The translations under genes were made by a program, and so were the position numbers. A stretch of 40,363 nt of DNA from a virus, in the IMG/VR virus record IMGVR_UViG_3300042466_002033, positions 1 through 40,363 of that record; one strand, written 5' to 3'. Under the pieces are notes generated by a model. It did no database searches. It was not told the DNA's origin and saw only the letters and a program-made list of their open reading frames with translations. Shown in pieces: positions 22,716-30,959 of the stretch (the stretch's first letter is position 1; each line of letters opens with the position of its first letter).

Positions 22716-24617
22716 ATGCCAGACGACCAAACCATAGTCGAAGGCGATGCCGGATTCCTCGGCATGGCCAGCCGCTTAAACCCGCTGCAACTCCAGCCGG
22801 GTATGGTTCAATACGCCGAAAACATGCGCCTTGATCGTGGCGTGGCTCAGACTCGCAAAGGGGCCAAACGCCTGGGCGATGGCATCTCCGCAGGCACGCA
22901 GCCTCTCACTCTCCCATTTGTGCTGGATGCCAATGCCCGCGTGCGCACAATCTACAGCGGCGGCATCTTCGCCTCGGGCGTTTTCTCCTCGCCGAACTAC
23001 GATGATGAAAATGAATACATAATCCTCTGCGGGCCGACCTCGGCGTTTCTCTACCGGCAGGACGAGCCTATCGAGGAAATCAACTATCCCGCCACCGGCA
23101 CAGCATCCGACGAGATCATCGAGCCCACGGACAGCGTTTCGACGCTCCAAGCATTCAACCGTTTCTACCTCCTGCGCGAGGCCGACATGACGCTGCCTAG
23201 CTGGGATTGGAAATACACCACCGCCAGCGGCATCGCAGTCTCTGGCGCCACGGCCACCGTCCATATCACCGCCCATGGCCTCGCTGCTGGCCAGCGGGTG
23301 CGGATAGAGGAGGGGAGCCAAGCGGCTTTCCAAGGGCATGAGTATGACATCCTCACCGCTACGGCCAATTCCTTCACCATTGAGGTGCCCGCTGGCACAT
23401 CGCCGGATGTCTCCGCCAACATCGCAATCCGCCGCGTCAAAGCCCCGCTCTGGTGGGATGGATCGACGATGGAGTTTCAACGCGCCGCCTCGGGCGTGCC
23501 TGCCGAGGGCGTGAGTTTCAAAACCCTGCGCTCTACTGGCTGGGCCAGCTACATCGGCAACCGCCTGTGGATCCCCGATGGCCGCGACACCGTGGCCATC
23601 TCGGATGTTCTCGACCCCGACCTCTACGACCCGTTTTTCCAATCTTTCCGCGCCAACCAGGGTAGCAACGACTACCTCGTCGCCATTCACCCATGGGTCG
23701 AAGGCCAAGCGCTGGTCTTCCTACGCAACTCGATCTGGCTGGCCAACCTCGCCGACACCAGCAACGCCGCCGGCGACACCTTCACGGTGGACTCTGCCGT
23801 TTCCAAGCTCACGCTCCTCACCGACGAGATCGGCTGCGTAGCCCGCCGCTCGATCCAGACGGCAGGGCAATTTGTTTTTTTCCTCTCCGACGCCGGAGTT
23901 TACCGGCTGGACACCCAGCTCGACCTAAAGCTCCGCGCCAACACTCAGCCGCTCTCGGACCCTATCGCCGACCAGATCGACGAGATCAACAGCGACTACG
24001 CTCATCTCGCCGTAGGAAAATGGTGGAACAATCGCTACTACCTCGCCGTGCCCATCGGCGAGAACGCCACAAGCAACAACACCCTTTTTCTCTGGAACGC
24101 CCTCAACTCGCAATGGGAAAGCCGCGACACCTACGCCATCAATCTCGACGAGCTTCTGGTCGCCGCCTACTCCAGCCAACGCCGCCTCTTCGCCGCCAGC
24201 CGCGCCGGAACGCTCTTCCTGCTCGATGAGCTGGACTACGGCGACGATGTGCCATACGCCAACGCGCAAGACCTCTACACCAAAATCCCCTCCGAACTCA
24301 TTACCCGCCGCTACGGCTGGGGGAGCCTCAATGCCAAGCGCCTGACTCGCGCCAAAGCCAGCGTGCTCCTACCAGACGCCTCCGCTTGCACGCTGGACGC
24401 CGTAACGACCGACTACGACGCTGACTTCCAAGTCGCCGCCCTGGAGAACACCACCGGCGAAGAGGAAGACTACACGCTCAAAGCCCCCCTGCGCTGCAAA
24501 GCCACCGGCCTCGACCTCCGCTTCCGCACGCAAAGCGGCCGCCCCATTCTCCGCCAGATCAGCGCCGAAGCCACCCGCTCCGCCCTCGACCCCACCGAAA
24601 CCCGCACCCTCAACTAA
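22716..24617 (+). CDS. Large virion structural protein, beta-propeller-like, 633 aa
   Basis: Starts right at the previous stop. The N-terminal LNPLQLQPGMVQYAENMRLDRG with QTRKGAKRL resembles tail or neck proteins of P22-like podoviruses (gp10-type stabilisation proteins). Blade-like repeats follow: GNRLWIPDGRDTVAISD, EGQALVFLRNSIWLAN, GQFVFFLSDAGVYRLD, NNRYYLAVPIGENA and RRLFAASRAGTLFLLDE, typical of a beta-propeller. A small Ig-like insert may lie at about 170-235. It probably plugs or extends the portal channel. The specific gp10 equivalence is inference. Confidence 0.6.
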   Translation: MPDDQTIVEGDAGFLGMASRLNPLQLQPGMVQYAENMRLDRGVAQTRKGAKRLGDGISAGTQPLTLPFVLDANARVRTIYSGGIFASGVFSSPNYDDENEYIILCGPTSAFLYRQDEPIEEINYPATGTASDEIIEPTDSVSTLQAFNRFYLLREADMTLPSWDWKYTTASGIAVSGATATVHITAHGLAAGQRVRIEEGSQAAFQGHEYDILTATANSFTIEVPAGTSPDVSANIAIRRVKAPLWWDGSTMEFQRAASGVPAEGVSFKTLRSTGWASYIGNRLWIPDGRDTVAISDVLDPDLYDPFFQSFRANQGSNDYLVAIHPWVEGQALVFLRNSIWLANLADTSNAAGDTFTVDSAVSKLTLLTDEIGCVARRSIQTAGQFVFFLSDAGVYRLDTQLDLKLRANTQPLSDPIADQIDEINSDYAHLAVGKWWNNRYYLAVPIGENATSNNTLFLWNALNSQWESRDTYAINLDELLVAAYSSQRRLFAASRAGTLFLLDELDYGDDVPYANAQDLYTKIPSELITRRYGWGSLNAKRLTRAKASVLLPDASACTLDAVTTDYDADFQVAALENTTGEEEDYTLKAPLRCKATGLDLRFRTQSGRPILRQISAEATRSALDPTETRTLN

Positions 24618-24619
24618 CC

Positions 24620-25855
24620 ATGGCAACTCTCACTAAAGGCAAAACATTCGTAAACGGCGAACTCGTCACCCCTGCCAACCTCCACCAGATGGTCGATGCC
24701 GCCACCGTCGCCAACATTGTCAACGCCGACATCGCCTCAAATGCCGCCATCGCCGACACGAAGCTGGCCACCATTTCCACGGCAAATAAGGTGTCCCAAT
24801 CCGCCGTAACCAATCTCACCACCGACCTAGCAGGGAAAGCAGCGTCCATACACCAGCACGCTATTGCGGATACCACTGGGTTACAGACGGCGCTCGACGG
24901 CAAAGCGGCTGCAAGCCACAACCACGACGACCGTTACTACACAGAGTCGGAGATGAATACTCTGTTGGCAGGCAAGCAAGCGTCTGGAAGCTATGCACCT
25001 GCCAGCGGCATCGCGCCAAGCGCCATCACCGGCACGGCAGTTATCACGACTGACTCCCGTCTCTCGGATTCGCGGTCGCCGCTCTCGCATCAGCATGGGA
25101 ACATCACCGCCGCAGGAGCTATTGGAAACATAGCAAATATGCCAGTCATGACCACGACTGGAGGAGTGCTGACAACAGGTTTCTTTGGCGATCTTCCAAA
25201 TACCTTTTGTTCAGGAACTGATCCTCGGCTATCAGATGCACGGCAACCGATTTCAACCCACTTAGGATTAGTGAAAGCGTGGGTGAATTTCAACCACACC
25301 CGGATGCTGGGAGTCACTAATGCAGCCAATGGCGAGTCTATTTCTGTCACTGCCGGAACCTCCTCTGGGATATGGAATAGCACGACGGCTTTTTCAATAG
25401 GGCAGATTGGTATTATTTATTACATAACAAGCGCAGGAGCAGTTCCAAACGCTTCGCTTGGAGGTATCAATGTCTCCACACTTGGGTTTCAGATACGGGC
25501 CATTTCTGGTAATACTGCCACAATAAAACTTATTGCAGGCCCAGCTACAACTTCACAAACAATTACGGGCAATGGTGGCACAAGTGGTTTCCAGTATATA
25601 AGCTACGGAATTAGGGCCCAATACGGCGTGTCAAGCATCACTAAAGCAGCGTCTGGAAGTCACATGAACTTCACATTTAATTTTTCAACCCCGTTTGATT
25701 TCATTGATTATTGCTATAATTTACAGATGGATGCGAGGTCTTCGGGTGATTTTTATGTCCAAGGTAAACACCAAAGCAGCATTCAAATACAAGTATTAAA
25801 CTTCTCTGACGCCTCCGTTTCCAGTCAGATAAATTTCATGGCTTTTGGACTATGA
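24620..25855 (+). CDS. Tail fibre with HxH motifs, 411 aa, mosaic C-terminus
   Basis: N-terminal GKTFVNGELVTPANLHQMVDAATVANI is a widespread phage-fibre start. Collagen- or triple-helix-like linkers follow, with SHNHDDRYYTESEMNTLLAGKQ and SDSRSPLSHQHG repeats. HQH, HNH and HQH triplets could bind metal ions along the trimer axis, as in HxH fibres. From about 25100 to the stop the DNA becomes AT-richer with different codons, and the protein turns into a beta-rich tip ending INFMAFGL. It thus looks like an anchored shaft with an exchanged receptor-binding head. The stop overlaps the SET gene start. Confidence 0.75.
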   Translation: MATLTKGKTFVNGELVTPANLHQMVDAATVANIVNADIASNAAIADTKLATISTANKVSQSAVTNLTTDLAGKAASIHQHAIADTTGLQTALDGKAAASHNHDDRYYTESEMNTLLAGKQASGSYAPASGIAPSAITGTAVITTDSRLSDSRSPLSHQHGNITAAGAIGNIANMPVMTTTGGVLTTGFFGDLPNTFCSGTDPRLSDARQPISTHLGLVKAWVNFNHTRMLGVTNAANGESISVTAGTSSGIWNSTTAFSIGQIGIIYYITSAGAVPNASLGGINVSTLGFQIRAISGNTATIKLIAGPATTSQTITGNGGTSGFQYISYGIRAQYGVSSITKAASGSHMNFTFNFSTPFDFIDYCYNLQMDARSSGDFYVQGKHQSSIQIQVLNFSDASVSSQINFMAFGL

Positions 25856-26250
25856 CAAAAGCCCCAACCATGCTCCGTCCCGAGCCATACCACGCGACCA
25901 AGCTCGCCGTGCGGCGGTCCCCGTTGCACCGGTGGGGCGTCTTTGCCACCGCTCCCATCGCCAAGCACGAAGTGCTCGAGGAGGCCCCCTACGCCTGCGT
26001 GCCCAAGAAGCAACTCGCCAAAGCCCCCGCCTGCGAGACCTACAGCTACTACCTCGACGACTCTAACAGCATCCTCGGCTTCGGCCTCGCCCCCCTCTAC
26101 AACCACCACGACACCCCCAATGCCTGCCATGAGATCGACCAGGTAAACGAACTCATGCGGCACTACGCCCTGCGCGACATCGCCCCAGGCGAAGAGATCA
26201 CCCTCAACTACGGCGCAGAAAACGCCAAGCACTTCTTAGAAAAGGAATAA
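25852..26250 (+). CDS. SET-domain protein lysine methyltransferase
   Basis: A 132-aa protein that is little more than a SET core: RWGVFA at 27-32, NHHDTPNA at 84-91 and DIAPGEEITLNYG at 109-121, the three signature stretches that bind S-adenosylmethionine and form the pseudoknot. No pre-SET or post-SET cysteines are present. It would transfer methyl groups to a lysine side chain. ATG 25852 overlaps the fibre stop (ATGA), and a Gly/Met-rich virion protein gene follows 4 nt later, so a virion protein or a host protein are both possible targets. SET enzymes are unusual in phages. Confidence 0.85.
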   Translation: MTKAPTMLRPEPYHATKLAVRRSPLHRWGVFATAPIAKHEVLEEAPYACVPKKQLAKAPACETYSYYLDDSNSILGFGLAPLYNHHDTPNACHEIDQVNELMRHYALRDIAPGEEITLNYGAENAKHFLEKE

Positions 26251-26254
26251 CCCT

Positions 26255-28804
26255 ATGGCAATGAACATGAGCAACAGCGGCGGAGGAGGGGGAATGTCCG
26301 GCGGAGGAGGAGGCGGCGGTGGCGCGATGAGCGCTCCCGCGATGAGTGCAGCCATGTCCGACAACAACATGGGCGGCAACGCCATGTCCGGCGGCAACAA
26401 CAACGCCATGTCAACAGGGTCAACAGGGTCAGCAATGTCCAACGCCATGAGCGGCGGCAACGCCATGTCCGGCGGAGGAAGGTCCAGCGGCGGCATGGGC
26501 ATGGGCGGCATGAGCGCCCCGCCAGCCCCGCAGCAGCGCAGCCTCGCCGACGAGATGGCCGCGATCTCAGGCTACGCCCAAGCAAACGCCCAAGCGCAAG
26601 CCAACACCACCGTCGATACCGCAGACCGCCTCAGCGATCAGGCCATCGAGAACACCGGCGACATTGCGCAAAGACTCCAAGACAGCACCTACACGGGCGC
26701 TGCCAACCAAAATATCCGCGACGCCGGAACCTCTGCCGCCCAGCTCGGCCAGAGCTACAACCAAGTCGGCCAGACTGCCGACCGCGTAGCGGCCTACAAC
26801 GACCCCGCCCAAGCCCGACTGAACCAGATGGCCCTCGGCCAGCTCTACCGGCCCGACCAAATTTCCTCCCAGAATGTCTCCGCCGATCAGGTGACCGGCT
26901 CTCGCGTTGCCAATGTGGGCCAGATGGACTACGCCCGCCTCGGCCAAGTTGCCGATGTCCAAGGCCCAGCAGGCTACACGCCTGACCAAATCCGCGCCCA
27001 ACGCATCCGCGCCGCTCAAGCGGGGGCCGTGGCCGATGTCAACGCCCAGCAAATAAACGCCGCCAGCACCGGAGGCATCGAGCGTGTTGGAGGCACACAG
27101 GTATCCTCGGTGGACCCCATGCAAGCCGCTCGCATCCGCCGCACGCAGGATGTCGCATCCCGAGACATCCGCGCCAGCGCCGCCGAGCGTGGCCTTATGG
27201 ACGAAGCCCGAGGCAATGGACTCTATGGGCAACTCCGTAATCAAGCCAGCAACGACCTCGCCCTCGGCCGGTCTCTCTCCGCCGAGCAGAGCCGCGACGC
27301 AATCCAATCCTCCCGCGCCGCATCCTCCGCCCGTGGCCTTGGCCTCGGCCAATCTGCCATGGCCGCCGAGCTTCTCAACCGCGACCGCTTCGGCACTGCC
27401 AGGGAAAACGAACGCCGAGCTTTTGCTGGCAATGTCCTTGGACAAGGCACCGCCGTCCAGCAAGCAGCCAACCAAGCCTACATGGGCCGCCAAGAAAGCA
27501 ATGTCGGCCGCTCCCTCCAAGCAGGGCTCGCCAACCAATCCGTCGCCGCCAACCGATCCCTACAGCAAGCCCAGCTCCAGCAGCAGGCCAACCTCACCAC
27601 CAACCAAAACGAGCAGCAGCGCGTGCTCGCCGATGCCGGTTACGCCCAGCAGGCCGGACTCTCGAACCAAAGCCTCGGATTCCAAAGCGCCAGTCAGGAT
27701 GCTCAATTTTCCCAAGCCGCAGCTCTGGCAAACCAAGACGCCTCACTTCGAGCCGCCCTAGCAAACCAATCTGCGGGTCTCACATTAGGCCAGACGAACG
27801 CCCAGCTACGGCAAGCCGCCTCTATCCAATCGGCCCAAAACCAACTCGCCGCACAGCAAGCCAACCAAGCCGCCAACGCCCGAGCCGCTGAATTTGCGCA
27901 GCAGGGCGGGCTTCAAGCCTCCTTGGCAAACCAGCAAGCCGGACTCTCTCAAGCCGCCGAGCAGGCCCGCCTGCAACAAACCGCTATTGGCGCGTCCTAC
28001 GACGCATCCCAGCAACGCGCCATGGCCGATGCAGGCTATGCCCAACAGGCCAACCTCGCCAACCAATCGGCCAACCTCAACGCCGCCCAATACAACAGCA
28101 GCCAAAACCTCGCAGCCCAGCAGGCGAACCAATCGGCAAACTACAACGCCACCTACGCGAACCAAAATTTCCTGCAAGGCGTCGCCAGCCAGAACTTCAA
28201 CCAATTCAGCGGCCAGCAAAGCATGCTCGGCAGTCTCTACGGCCAGCAAGCAGGCATCGCCCAAAACCAATACGCCAACAACCTCGGCCTCGCCCAAGCC
28301 AATGTCGCCCTCGACCCCTACCAACGCGCACTCGGCAGCAACATCCCTATAGCCAGCCAAGGCAACGCCGCCAACATGATCGGCACAGCCTACGGCCAGA
28401 CCATGAACTACGGCTCCGACCTCTTCAACACCAACACCAACATGCAGGCCAGCATCTACAACAGCTTCCAAAACAACCAAGCCTCGTTGCAAGGAGCCCG
28501 CTTACAAGCTGGTGCAAGCGCAGCCGCTGGACAAAGCGGCATGATCGGCAGCATTGCCGGTGGTGCTGGAGCGGCAATCGGCGGAGCGGCTATTGCTGCC
28601 GTGTGCTGGATCGCTCGAGCGGCATTCGGCGTAGAGACAGATCGCTGGCAGAAATTCCGCCGCGCCATGCTCCGCCATGCCAGCGACCGCACGATCCGCC
28701 TCTACTGCCAGCATGGTCAATCCATCGCCGCCACTCTCACCACCCCCCTGCGTCGCCTTGCGGCTCGACTCACGCTCCGCTCGCTGGAATTTGCATGGAA
28801 ATAA
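26255..28804 (+). CDS. Gly-rich and Gln/Ala-rich virion (injected) protein with CWIARAAFG motif, 849 aa
   Basis: Residues 1-93 are Gly, Met, Ser and Asn repeats (blocks of 5-8 glycines, AMSGG units). Residues about 94-760 are Gln/Ala/Asn-rich helix-prone repeats such as ANQSANLNAAQ and AGYAQQA, as in podovirus internal or ejection proteins. Near the end, a Gly/Ala membrane-like helix (about 765-783) leads into CWIARAAFG (784-792) and an Arg-rich amphipathic tail. This matches the short C-x-I-A-x-A-x-x-G motif seen at the ends of phage virion and secreted proteins. It probably crosses into the host envelope during DNA entry. It is encoded between a SET and a YcaO/TfuA pair, so it is a prime candidate for modification. 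Confidence 0.65.
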   Translation: MAMNMSNSGGGGGMSGGGGGGGGAMSAPAMSAAMSDNNMGGNAMSGGNNNAMSTGSTGSAMSNAMSGGNAMSGGGRSSGGMGMGGMSAPPAPQQRSLADEMAAISGYAQANAQAQANTTVDTADRLSDQAIENTGDIAQRLQDSTYTGAANQNIRDAGTSAAQLGQSYNQVGQTADRVAAYNDPAQARLNQMALGQLYRPDQISSQNVSADQVTGSRVANVGQMDYARLGQVADVQGPAGYTPDQIRAQRIRAAQAGAVADVNAQQINAASTGGIERVGGTQVSSVDPMQAARIRRTQDVASRDIRASAAERGLMDEARGNGLYGQLRNQASNDLALGRSLSAEQSRDAIQSSRAASSARGLGLGQSAMAAELLNRDRFGTARENERRAFAGNVLGQGTAVQQAANQAYMGRQESNVGRSLQAGLANQSVAANRSLQQAQLQQQANLTTNQNEQQRVLADAGYAQQAGLSNQSLGFQSASQDAQFSQAAALANQDASLRAALANQSAGLTLGQTNAQLRQAASIQSAQNQLAAQQANQAANARAAEFAQQGGLQASLANQQAGLSQAAEQARLQQTAIGASYDASQQRAMADAGYAQQANLANQSANLNAAQYNSSQNLAAQQANQSANYNATYANQNFLQGVASQNFNQFSGQQSMLGSLYGQQAGIAQNQYANNLGLAQANVALDPYQRALGSNIPIASQGNAANMIGTAYGQTMNYGSDLFNTNTNMQASIYNSFQNNQASLQGARLQAGASAAAGQSGMIGSIAGGAGAAIGGAAIAAVCWIARAAFGVETDRWQKFRRAMLRHASDRTIRLYCQHGQSIAATLTTPLRRLAARLTLRSLEFAWK

Positions 28805-29970
28805 CCAAACATCGCGCAGATGGCGCCCACCGCGCTTGCACCCCTGAGCAGACGCTGGAGCGCATGCGGCCGCATTTCCACGCCGCAGGCATTACCCGCC
28901 TCGCCGAGATCACCGGTCTGGACCGCATCGGCATCTGTGTCGCGCAGTGCATCCGGCCCGATGCCATCGTGCTGGCCGTGGATTCTGGCAAAGGAGCCAC
29001 CCCCGCCGCAGCCAAGTGCTCGGCCATGATGGAAGGCTTCGAGCGCCATGTGGGCGAGACAAGCCATGTCCCTCACTTTACGGCCACCGCAAGCAGCCTC
29101 GGCCAAAGCGCAGAAACGCGACTACCTCTTCTAAATGGGGCGGCATTCAATCCAAATATCCCAATCCGCTGGGGCATCGCGCAGGGAATAAAAAGCGGGG
29201 CGGCAAAACATCTCCCCCTTGCAGCCATACATCTCACTGCCCGTGGACCCGCTGACGAACCATTAGCGGCATCTATGTTTTCCTGCACAAGCAACGGACT
29301 ATCTGCGGGGAATACCTATGCAGAAGCAATCTGTGGCGGGCTCTACGAAGTCATCGAGCGCGACCAAGTGGCCATAGGCATGGAAAACCCAAAACCTGTG
29401 CCGCGTGTTGATCTCGACACCATCACCGACAGCACCTTGTCTGGCATTGTCCGCCGCCTGCGACAGGCCGACCTCATGCCTGTGCTTTTCGATTGCACCT
29501 CTGATATCGGCGTGCCGACTTACACGGCTTATATCTACGACACAGAAGAGCGTGGAGTCGGATTCTACCGAGGCTACGCGGCACACCTCGACCCCGCTGT
29601 CGCTCAGTGCCGGGCATTGTGCGAAGCAATACAAGGCCGCCTTGTTTATATCGCCGGAAGCCGCGACGACATCTTGCACGAACGCTACCAAGCAACGAAA
29701 GACTCCGACACCGCTCATAATCTGGGGCGACTCCTGGCAGTCAAAGATGTCGTCTCAAGCCGCGCCCACCCAGACCGATCAGGCGACACCTTTGAAGAGG
29801 ATATCGACACCCTTCTGAGCCTCCTCGCCGCCGCCGGCATCCCCGAGCCGCTCGTCCATGAGTTCACCCATGATTACCCTTGCAGCGTCGTGCGAGTCAT
29901 CATACCGACCCTTGAAGGATACTACAACCGACACATAGCGCGTGGATCCCGCGCCAGGAGGAACGGATGA
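28795..29970 (+). CDS. YcaO-domain ATP-dependent cyclodehydratase/thioamidase
   Basis: The 391-aa product carries the YcaO core: DSGKGATPAAAKCSAMMEGF with ERH (63-85), AGNTYAEAICGGLYEVIERD (171-190), QCRALCEAIQGRL (271-283), GSRDD (288-292) and VVRVIIPTLE (365-374). The Glu/Arg residues in these blocks coordinate ATP-Mg in known YcaO proteins, which activate a backbone amide for heterocycle, amidine or thioamide formation. A TfuA gene follows with ATGA overlap, the pairing known for thioamide formation. No partner C or ocin-ThiF gene is present. It overlaps the end of the Gly-rich virion gene by 10 nt. Confidence 0.9.
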   Translation: MEITKHRADGAHRACTPEQTLERMRPHFHAAGITRLAEITGLDRIGICVAQCIRPDAIVLAVDSGKGATPAAAKCSAMMEGFERHVGETSHVPHFTATASSLGQSAETRLPLLNGAAFNPNIPIRWGIAQGIKSGAAKHLPLAAIHLTARGPADEPLAASMFSCTSNGLSAGNTYAEAICGGLYEVIERDQVAIGMENPKPVPRVDLDTITDSTLSGIVRRLRQADLMPVLFDCTSDIGVPTYTAYIYDTEERGVGFYRGYAAHLDPAVAQCRALCEAIQGRLVYIAGSRDDILHERYQATKDSDTAHNLGRLLAVKDVVSSRAHPDRSGDTFEEDIDTLLSLLAAAGIPEPLVHEFTHDYPCSVVRVIIPTLEGYYNRHIARGSRARRNG

Positions 29971-30959
29971 AAATCTTTATCGGCCCCACTCGCCCCGGCA
30001 ATATCCCCGCCGATGCCGACATACGCCCTCCAGCGCAGCAAGGCGACATCGCCGCCGCCGCACTGGAAGGTGCCGACACGCTCATATTGATTGATGGATT
30101 CTTCCACCAGACTCTCGCCCCTTGGCATAAGGAAATCCTCTTCGCCATCGAGCGTGGCTGCCGCGTCATTGGAGCAGGGAGCCTCGGCGCACTCCGCGCC
30201 GTCGAGTGCGCCCGCTACGGAGCCGAGCCTGTCGGCGTCATCGCGGGGTGGTATGCCGACGAATCCTGCGCCGACGATGCCGATGTAGCTTTGGCTCATG
30301 CCTGTGCCGAAGACGGCTACCGCCCGCTCTCCATCCCACTCGTAAACCTCCGCGCCACAGCAGAAGCTCATATCGACGAAGCCGGTCACATCCTCGCCGT
30401 TGCCCGCTCCATCTACTACCCCGAGCGCACCTGGCAGCGCCTCCGCCGCGACCTCGGCGATGTGGTGGATATCCTGCAAGCACGCTACATCGACCAGAAA
30501 GCCCTCGACGCCGAGGAAGCTATCCGCCACGCCCAGCATGTCGCCGCTCCCGTCCGTTGCGATACCCCTCAGCACATCCACACGGCACATCTCCGGGCTT
30601 TGCTTGACAACGATCTTCCAACTCCCGCAGGCCGCACCTACACGCTTTTCCCAGACGCCCAGCGCCAAGCGGCAACGGATGCCAGGCTACTCGCCGAGCT
30701 CGCCCAAGCGGCAGGCATCACCATCACGCCTCACGATATCATCCAAGCCTCCCGCAGCATGTGGAATCGGCTTGGCATACAGGACGAAAAGACCGCCTCA
30801 CATTGGCTTTTAGAAAACCAAATCCCCGAAGCCGCATGGACCCAAGAGTCCATGAACGAAGCCCTGCGCACAGCCGCACGCAACTGGCTCTCCTCTGCAA
30901 GTAATTCGTTCGACGCTATACCCATCACAAAACTCCACACAACAATCCACCCCTCATAA
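29967..30959 (+). CDS. TfuA-like protein (YcaO partner)
   Basis: A 330-aa protein whose first 115 residues follow the TfuA pattern: FIGPTRPG (4-11), PPAQQGD (21-27), LIDGFFHQTLAPWHKEILFA (41-60), GAGSLGALRAVE (69-80) and a DDADVALAH acidic stretch (103-111). TfuA partners YcaO in trifolitoxin synthesis and in thioamidation, where it is thought to help deliver sulfur. The C-terminal 200 residues are helical and look less conserved. A strong AGGAGGA Shine-Dalgarno (29956-29962) and ATGA overlap couple it tightly to YcaO. Functional thioamidation in this phage is inferred, not shown. Confidence 0.85.
   Translation: MKIFIGPTRPGNIPADADIRPPAQQGDIAAAALEGADTLILIDGFFHQTLAPWHKEILFAIERGCRVIGAGSLGALRAVECARYGAEPVGVIAGWYADESCADDADVALAHACAEDGYRPLSIPLVNLRATAEAHIDEAGHILAVARSIYYPERTWQRLRRDLGDVVDILQARYIDQKALDAEEAIRHAQHVAAPVRCDTPQHIHTAHLRALLDNDLPTPAGRTYTLFPDAQRQAATDARLLAELAQAAGITITPHDIIQASRSMWNRLGIQDEKTASHWLLENQIPEAAWTQESMNEALRTAARNWLSSASNSFDAIPITKLHTTIHPS

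Follow-up and report, generated by a model that had tools for sequence, protein, structure and literature searches.

A minimal SET domain in tailed phages is paired with a methionine-rich tail on a neighboring virion-type protein

What does a tailed phage do with a SET domain, and which protein does the enzyme engage? The question is raised by a 40,363-base IMG/VR record (IMGVR_UViG_3300042466_002033), referred to here as the window and analyzed over its full length. Genes for a terminase, a scaffold, and a major head protein lie nearby, which identifies the window phage as tailed. The SET gene at 25852–26250 (plus strand) encodes exactly 132 amino acids and is located within this block of virion genes, as the first-pass annotation of the sequence had proposed. 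The three motif blocks on which that annotation based a minimal SET domain, RWGVFA (residues 27–32), NHHDTPNA (84–91), and GEEITLNYG (113–121), are all present, and the open reading frame (ORF), the profile match, and a structural model agree on the assignment. The Pfam SET profile (PF00856) gives the protein 51.5 bits (E = 1.5e-13), the curated cut-off being 22.4, and a profile search of the whole record returns one SET match, in the same ORF. The ORF is confirmed as a real gene, far beyond chance.

The phage enzyme is an additional member of the SET superfamily. A phmmer search of the PDB places PBCV-1 vSET first (E = 3.3e-13), followed by S. pombe Set7 and COMPASS Set1. The AlphaFold model of the 132-residue protein has a mean pLDDT of 87.7 and a pTM of 0.79, and Foldseek matches it to Set7 (5h6z; E = 1e-9, TMq 0.75, probability 1.00) and to vSET (3kma; E = 1.1e-9, TMq 0.71, probability 1.00). 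vSET (A612L; PDB 1n3j, 3kma), the H3K27 methyltransferase of a chlorovirus, is thus the best sequence match and the second-best fold. Like the window protein, it is viral and consists of a minimal SET domain that lacks pre- and post-SET regions; the two share about 30% identity, the NH pair, and the catalytic tyrosine, and 132 residues fit the range of about 120–135 seen for stand-alone SET proteins of the vSET type. Unlike vSET, the window SET comes from a phage of prokaryotes, which offers no histone H3 target, and is paired with a Met/Gly tail. Set7 (PDB 5h6z) and the KMT2/COMPASS SET domains have the same fold, with an S-x-(I/L)-H-x-W-G-(V/L)-(F/Y) start in the KMT2 type, but they are cellular and larger, act on chromatin substrates, and lack a paired tail gene.

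Residues expected for cofactor binding and catalysis are retained: W28-G29-V30-F31, Y64, N84-H85 with P89-N90, E115, and Y120. The W28–F31 block, N84-H85, E115, and Y120 are invariant across 30–31 aligned SET sequences. Loss of the Asn–His pair in a structural model had been named earlier as grounds for abandoning the assignment; the pair is intact. The sole Pfam match spans residues 28–121, and the RuBisCO-LSMT substrate-binding domain is absent from the 132-residue protein. PHROGs and NCBIfam searches assign no family to it. The gene looks like that of an active minimal SET methyltransferase, whose predicted activity would be SAM-dependent methylation of protein. Across 51 window-family sequences dN/dS is about 0.11, indicating that the gene is under purifying selection. 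A 135-residue antisense ORF also lies over the SET gene (window 25825–26232, minus strand). Across 185 SET stretches the matching frame is open in 112, and the other two antisense frames are never open; the ORF probably reflects codon usage in GC-rich genes.

The earlier view that SET genes are unusual in phages stands for cultured phages, with one SET-bearing genome among the 50,697 INPHARED records (a 735-kb uncultured phage, in two records, 37% identity), but fails for uncultivated ones. A first pass through IMG/VR gave 52 SET loci, and at least 231 SET relatives occur there, the collection searches recovering only relatives that share short peptides. One scan of bacterial genomes gave six distant SET matches, and UniProt holds a few entries automatically annotated as "SET domain containing protein [uncultured Caudovirales phage]". 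A literature search on SET with phage or cyanophage returned nothing relevant on phage SET proteins.

In IMG/VR, the SET gene occurs in five contexts, and no proteins are detectably common to the window and the others. Group a is the window family, with SET identities of 90–98% in one group and 61–70% in another. Group b comprises podoviruses with another terminase (L052, L069, L145) together with L141-type contigs, and group c T7-like contigs with SET beside the portal (L068, L070). Group d is T4-like, with the tail gene in phrog_358 (L072, L135, L138, L139, L143, L149), and group e is marine (L074–L082). The SETs of T7-like L068 and of L145, from the other terminase group, are sisters in the SET tree (support 100/98), so the gene moves between phage types, and a Met tail adjoins SET in both. 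That all tailed-phage SETs form one clade is neither demonstrated nor rejected (p-AU 0.224), and vSET, a long branch, falls in a part of the tree with poor resolution. Within the window family, L061 and L062 have a SET only about 62% identical to that of the window and an upstream gene, g22716, that is 94% identical; two divergent SET alleles appear to exchange at one site. The marine SETs have an acidic C-terminal end (e.g., EEDEEDFGDY) and lie beside an HNH-type gene, and some of these contigs carry glucose-6-phosphate-dehydrogenase-like and integrase-like genes, as judged by eye.

The arrangement around the window SET gene is compact. Its start codon overlaps the stop codon of a tail-fiber-like gene (24620–25855, plus strand) in a four-base ATGA (25852–25855), bearing out the overlap described earlier. 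The fiber-like protein varies among relatives, and its match to the phage tail repeat PTR (E = 1.3e-5) is under the curated cut-off. An AAGGA ribosome-binding-like site (26242–26246, plus strand) lies within the 3' end of the SET ORF and precedes a gene starting at 26255, whose product is termed the partner here. Both the overlap and this site, read directly in the sequence, suggest that tail fiber, SET, and partner are translationally coupled. The partner has 849 residues: a tail of about 90 residues rich in Met, Gly, Ser, and Asn (26255–26524, plus strand; 16 Met, no Lys), beginning MAMNMSNSGGGGGMSGGGGGGGGAMSAPAMSAAMS, and a Gln/Asn/Ala-rich body (26525–28804, plus strand) with a Gly-zipper-like hydrophobic stretch and a CWIAR C-terminal domain. 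Its place beside tail and ejection-type genes suggests a virion or ejected protein.

This N-terminal tail recurs wherever groups a–c were compared: the product of the gene directly downstream of SET opens with a tail made up of Gly, Met, Ser, Ala, and Asn. In ten representatives, the first 60 partner residues are 73–100% Gly, Met, Ser, and Asn; 248 other genes of the representative loci all stay below 60% over their first 60 residues. By criteria and thresholds set after the first examples had been inspected, all 58 distinct downstream N-termini (groups a–c, podovirus-type) have at least four methionines after the start within 60 residues, and 55 of the 58 have no lysine. The methionines follow Ala, Gly, or Asn and precede Ser or Gly, forming (A/G)-M-(S/G) repeats. 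In window-family tails, M-S occurs 408 times against 94 expected by shuffling, and M-M never occurs. No relationship is detectable among the partner bodies of the window type, the L052/L069/L145 type, and the T7-like L068/L070. This conserved pairing with the downstream gene strengthens the earlier suggestion that SET is linked to a virion protein, and as far as could be found, the SET-plus-Met-tail pair is undescribed.

Two simpler signatures do not hold. GGGMxGGG runs were considered as a SET marker, and a pattern scan gave 80 loci, one of them with SET; internal or C-terminal Gly-Met runs are therefore common and unlinked to SET, the link being only with the tail at the end of the neighboring protein. 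Methylation of the N-terminal alpha-amine is possible but non-discriminating, since SET-positive tails have Ala, Ser, Gly, or Pro at residue 2, as do many SET-negative relatives.

Relatives without SET provide the comparison. Among the loci recovered with g22716 (22716–24617), 50 have SET, and at least 17 relatives with readable next genes lack it; whole-record searches of nine of the latter, which may be fragments, find SET nowhere else. In most SET-negative relatives, the partner homolog directly follows the tail fiber. L376 and L378 lack SET and have a body 80–81% identical to the window partner, yet they start MGKKKKSKQEAPPPP or MSKKKKPSAPPA, a basic tail (MGKKKKSK...). At the position of the window's Met tail and the APPAPQQRS after it, L376 begins MGKKKKSKQEAPPPPQPRD and L378 MSKKKKPSAPPAPQQRD. 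The g22716 tree implies about 10 SET changes, and six of six well-supported independent pairs show SET and the Met tail changing jointly (p = 0.031). Partner lysine content is 0.24% with SET and 2.26% without (p = 2e-9). None of the other testable neighboring families is lysine-depleted with SET, and the tail fiber is slightly lysine-richer. In SET-positive partners, lost lysines are replaced by Asp, Gln, or Arg.

Lysine methylation of the neighboring virion protein, one of the functions suggested earlier, is rejected for most SET-positive phages. The adjacent protein is nearly lysine-free (two lysines in the 849 residues of the window partner, none in L058 over 602 residues, and none in the partial, 374-residue L055), and the lysine-to-methionine swap tracks SET, which makes such simple methylation unlikely. 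The idea that lysine is lost completely across the whole partner was softened: lysines of SET-negative partners lie mostly in the first ~80 residues, and the body of a second lineage, described below, keeps about half its lysine level.

A different possibility, which we consider doubtful, is that SET is an ordinary lysine methyltransferase of other virion or host proteins and that the adjacent protein shed its lysines to avoid mistaken methylation during synthesis nearby. The lysine-type motifs and catalytic tyrosine are canonical, the closest characterized relatives are all lysine methyltransferases, and depletion is limited to the adjacent protein. Virions package vSET, the nearest characterized viral relative, and it methylates a host histone; both properties are known for vSET only (PMC7019647). 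Phages without a Met tail, such as L149 and L074, still retain SET. Such avoidance would leave unexplained, however, why methionine in (A/G)-M-(S/G) context replaces lysine across unrelated lineages, why the L070 tail keeps lysines, and why other neighbors are spared, the tail fiber being slightly richer in lysine with SET. Specific lysine loss from a virion-type protein next to a lysine-methylating fold might also suggest counter-defense, in which the lysine-free partner and methylation of other exposed lysines by SET block host ubiquitin-like conjugation or lysine-directed defenses. Other virion proteins are normal in lysine content, and methionine enrichment would again be unexplained, making this highly improbable.

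The second lineage, defined by the terminase of L052, L069, and L145, shows the same association. With this terminase as query, two SET-positive loci are found, both with a Met tail; none of 78 loci without a SET match has one, although some lack coverage of the site, and the single flagged match among them, L292, is a different gene. On a common partner body, GKLDLQGIVNAGYKNIANIERG, four distinct SET-positive proteins have no lysine and 4–6 methionines in the first 60 residues, whereas 36 distinct SET-negative proteins have 2–18 lysines and 0–1 methionine (p = 0.001 and 2e-5, uncorrected for phylogeny). An example is GGGGAMSSGGGG with SET against GGGGNKPSGGGG without. The closest pair are both Gly-rich: L309, without SET, has MSKNKGGGGGGGNKPSGGGGGGGGNKPSGG, and L069, with SET, has MGGMGGGGGGGMGGGGGGGGAPSGGGGGAMSSGG.

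The gene near the portal starts Lys-rich in T7 (gp7.3), S-CBP3, and S-CBP4, none of which has SET, and Arg-rich in DSL-LC07. T7 gp7.3, a host range and adsorption protein whose gene lies immediately upstream of the portal region, is the positional counterpart of the partner in SET-positive L068 and L070. Its N-terminus is Lys-rich (MGKKVKKAVKK); T7 differs in having no SET and lysine rather than methionine in the tail, and the likeness to the L070 partner is positional. The L070 tail mixes the two residues, MGKKKGMGKMGMGMGM, as if they were interchangeable.

In the T4-like phages L072, L135, L138, L139, and L143, the orientation is reversed: a Met/Gly/Ser tail is C-terminal on the upstream tail protein, right before an S74 chaperone whose motif, MGM/SDIxLKxN, follows the segment. 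If the chaperone is cleaved off, as its family would suggest, the segment would form the C-terminus of the mature protein. The exceptions to the pairing are the T4-like L149-type contigs, with a Pro/Arg tail and few methionines in L149, marine L074–L082, whose SET is unaccompanied by a Met tail across the sequence read (for L074, the first 80,000 of 80,569 bases), and L070, with its combination of Lys and Met. In all five T4-like SET-positive contigs examined for it, two ORFs in different frames, overlapping or abutting, together encode the S74 chaperone (L072 5283–5549, L135 3681–3950, L138 3666–3929, L143 3686–3952, L149 3670–3927), which would reflect either a programmed frameshift or a separately translated chaperone.

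Since neighboring genes can be swapped together, co-variation within a family could be linkage. SET and the low-complexity start of the next gene might form a single recombination block, the tail being a sticky or flexible linker with no functional connection to SET. SET is flanked by the variable tail-fiber and partner genes, and its dS (0.25) is about half that of neighboring genes (0.5–1.0), so it may serve as a recombination anchor. L068 and L145 also combine close SETs with similar tail starts (MPMGGMGG/MSMGGMGG). IMG/VR contigs are mostly fragments, and Gly-rich repeats can be misassembled (L144 versus L145). Against mere linkage stand recurrence with unrelated bodies, SET-negative comparators in two lineages, and the reversed placement in T4-like phages. 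The tail remains rich in Met and nearly always free of lysine while SETs diverge to about 45–50% identity; in T4-like phages it lies on the opposite side of SET and at the opposite end of its protein; and no SET-negative relative with a visible N-terminus, in either lineage, has a Met tail. Linkage is therefore unlikely to account for the pattern, and a genetic partnership between SET and the Met tail is well supported.

The favored interpretation, to which we assign a probability of about 0.55, is that SET works with the Met/Gly-rich tail and that methionine occupies the SET site. Most weight is placed on methionine in the site because methionine fits the lysine channels of SET domains, as in Clr4 and SETD3. 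In SETD3, a histidine methyltransferase, methionine at the target site of an actin peptide is bound 76-fold tighter and can be methylated (reviewed in PMC8537074). This is a precedent for a SET active site methylating a methionine thioether, although SETD3 has 594 residues and a RuBisCO-LSMT substrate domain, and its methionine methylation is on an altered peptide rather than a natural tail. Trapping of the Clr4 SET domain by H3K9M depends on SAM (PMC5030085), and EZHIP with EZH2 is another K-to-M trap (PMC6513997). In these systems, methionine in place of the substrate lysine engages SET, much as SET-positive phage tails have methionine where SET-negative relatives have lysine. They differ in that the trap is a mutation or a chromatin inhibitor, whereas the phage ligand would be an encoded, repetitive tail of a virion protein. 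The AMSAPA of the window tail resembles the H3K27M context, a likeness that may reflect composition.

The tail would then be a multivalent ligand of SET, with methionines in (A/G)-M-(S/G) context taking the place of the substrate lysine in the channel beside SAM. From there, two outcomes are conceivable. In the first, methyl transfer to the thioether would produce a sulfonium and restore positive charge to a neutral tail, which would substitute for the basic lysine tail that SET-negative relatives encode directly. In the second, the tail would be a K-to-M docking or inhibitory ligand, keeping the enzyme attached to the virion protein while assembly proceeds or for delivery. Methylation and docking or inhibition are about equally likely, methylation being at most slightly favored, so that it takes about half of the probability given to the partnership. 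That SET is a natural protein-methionine methyltransferase, S-methylating partner-tail methionines to create a permanently cationic poly-sulfonium tail in place of a Lys-rich one, is accordingly a tentative proposal. To our knowledge, natural methylation of protein methionine is essentially unprecedented, and where body lysines are replaced, Asp or Gln often takes their place without conserving the charge. Physical interaction, methionine in the active site, methyl transfer, and presence in the virion are what we infer from the sequence comparisons.

The pairing bears on SET enzymes beyond chromatin, for which few partners are known, by directly naming a candidate. The phages provide a repeated natural experiment, in which SET gain accompanies lysine loss and methionine gain in one tail of one neighboring virion protein. 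Should the methionines be methylated, both the natural modification and this means of charging a protein tail would be new; if they only dock, the pair would be a K-to-M system of viral origin, evolved independently of oncohistones.

The region downstream of SET varies in other respects. The partner C-terminal domain CWIAR...RW..FR (window 28550–28804) is present in the window, L023, and L029 and missing in relatives whose partner is followed by a PAPS-like cassette. A site 3' of the partner (window 28801–30959; loci L002–L049) occurs in three states: YcaO with TfuA, a PAPS-reductase/CysD-like ATP-PP-loop protein with a small CxxCxxCC protein, or nothing. A tie between SET and the YcaO/TfuA pair was rejected, as the state of the site varies and both enzyme cassettes occur in SET-positive and SET-negative relatives. 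Sulfur-type enzymes interchange in the virion block independently of SET, and the closest NCBIfam models for YcaO and TfuA, below cut-off, are the McrA-glycine thioamidation pair.
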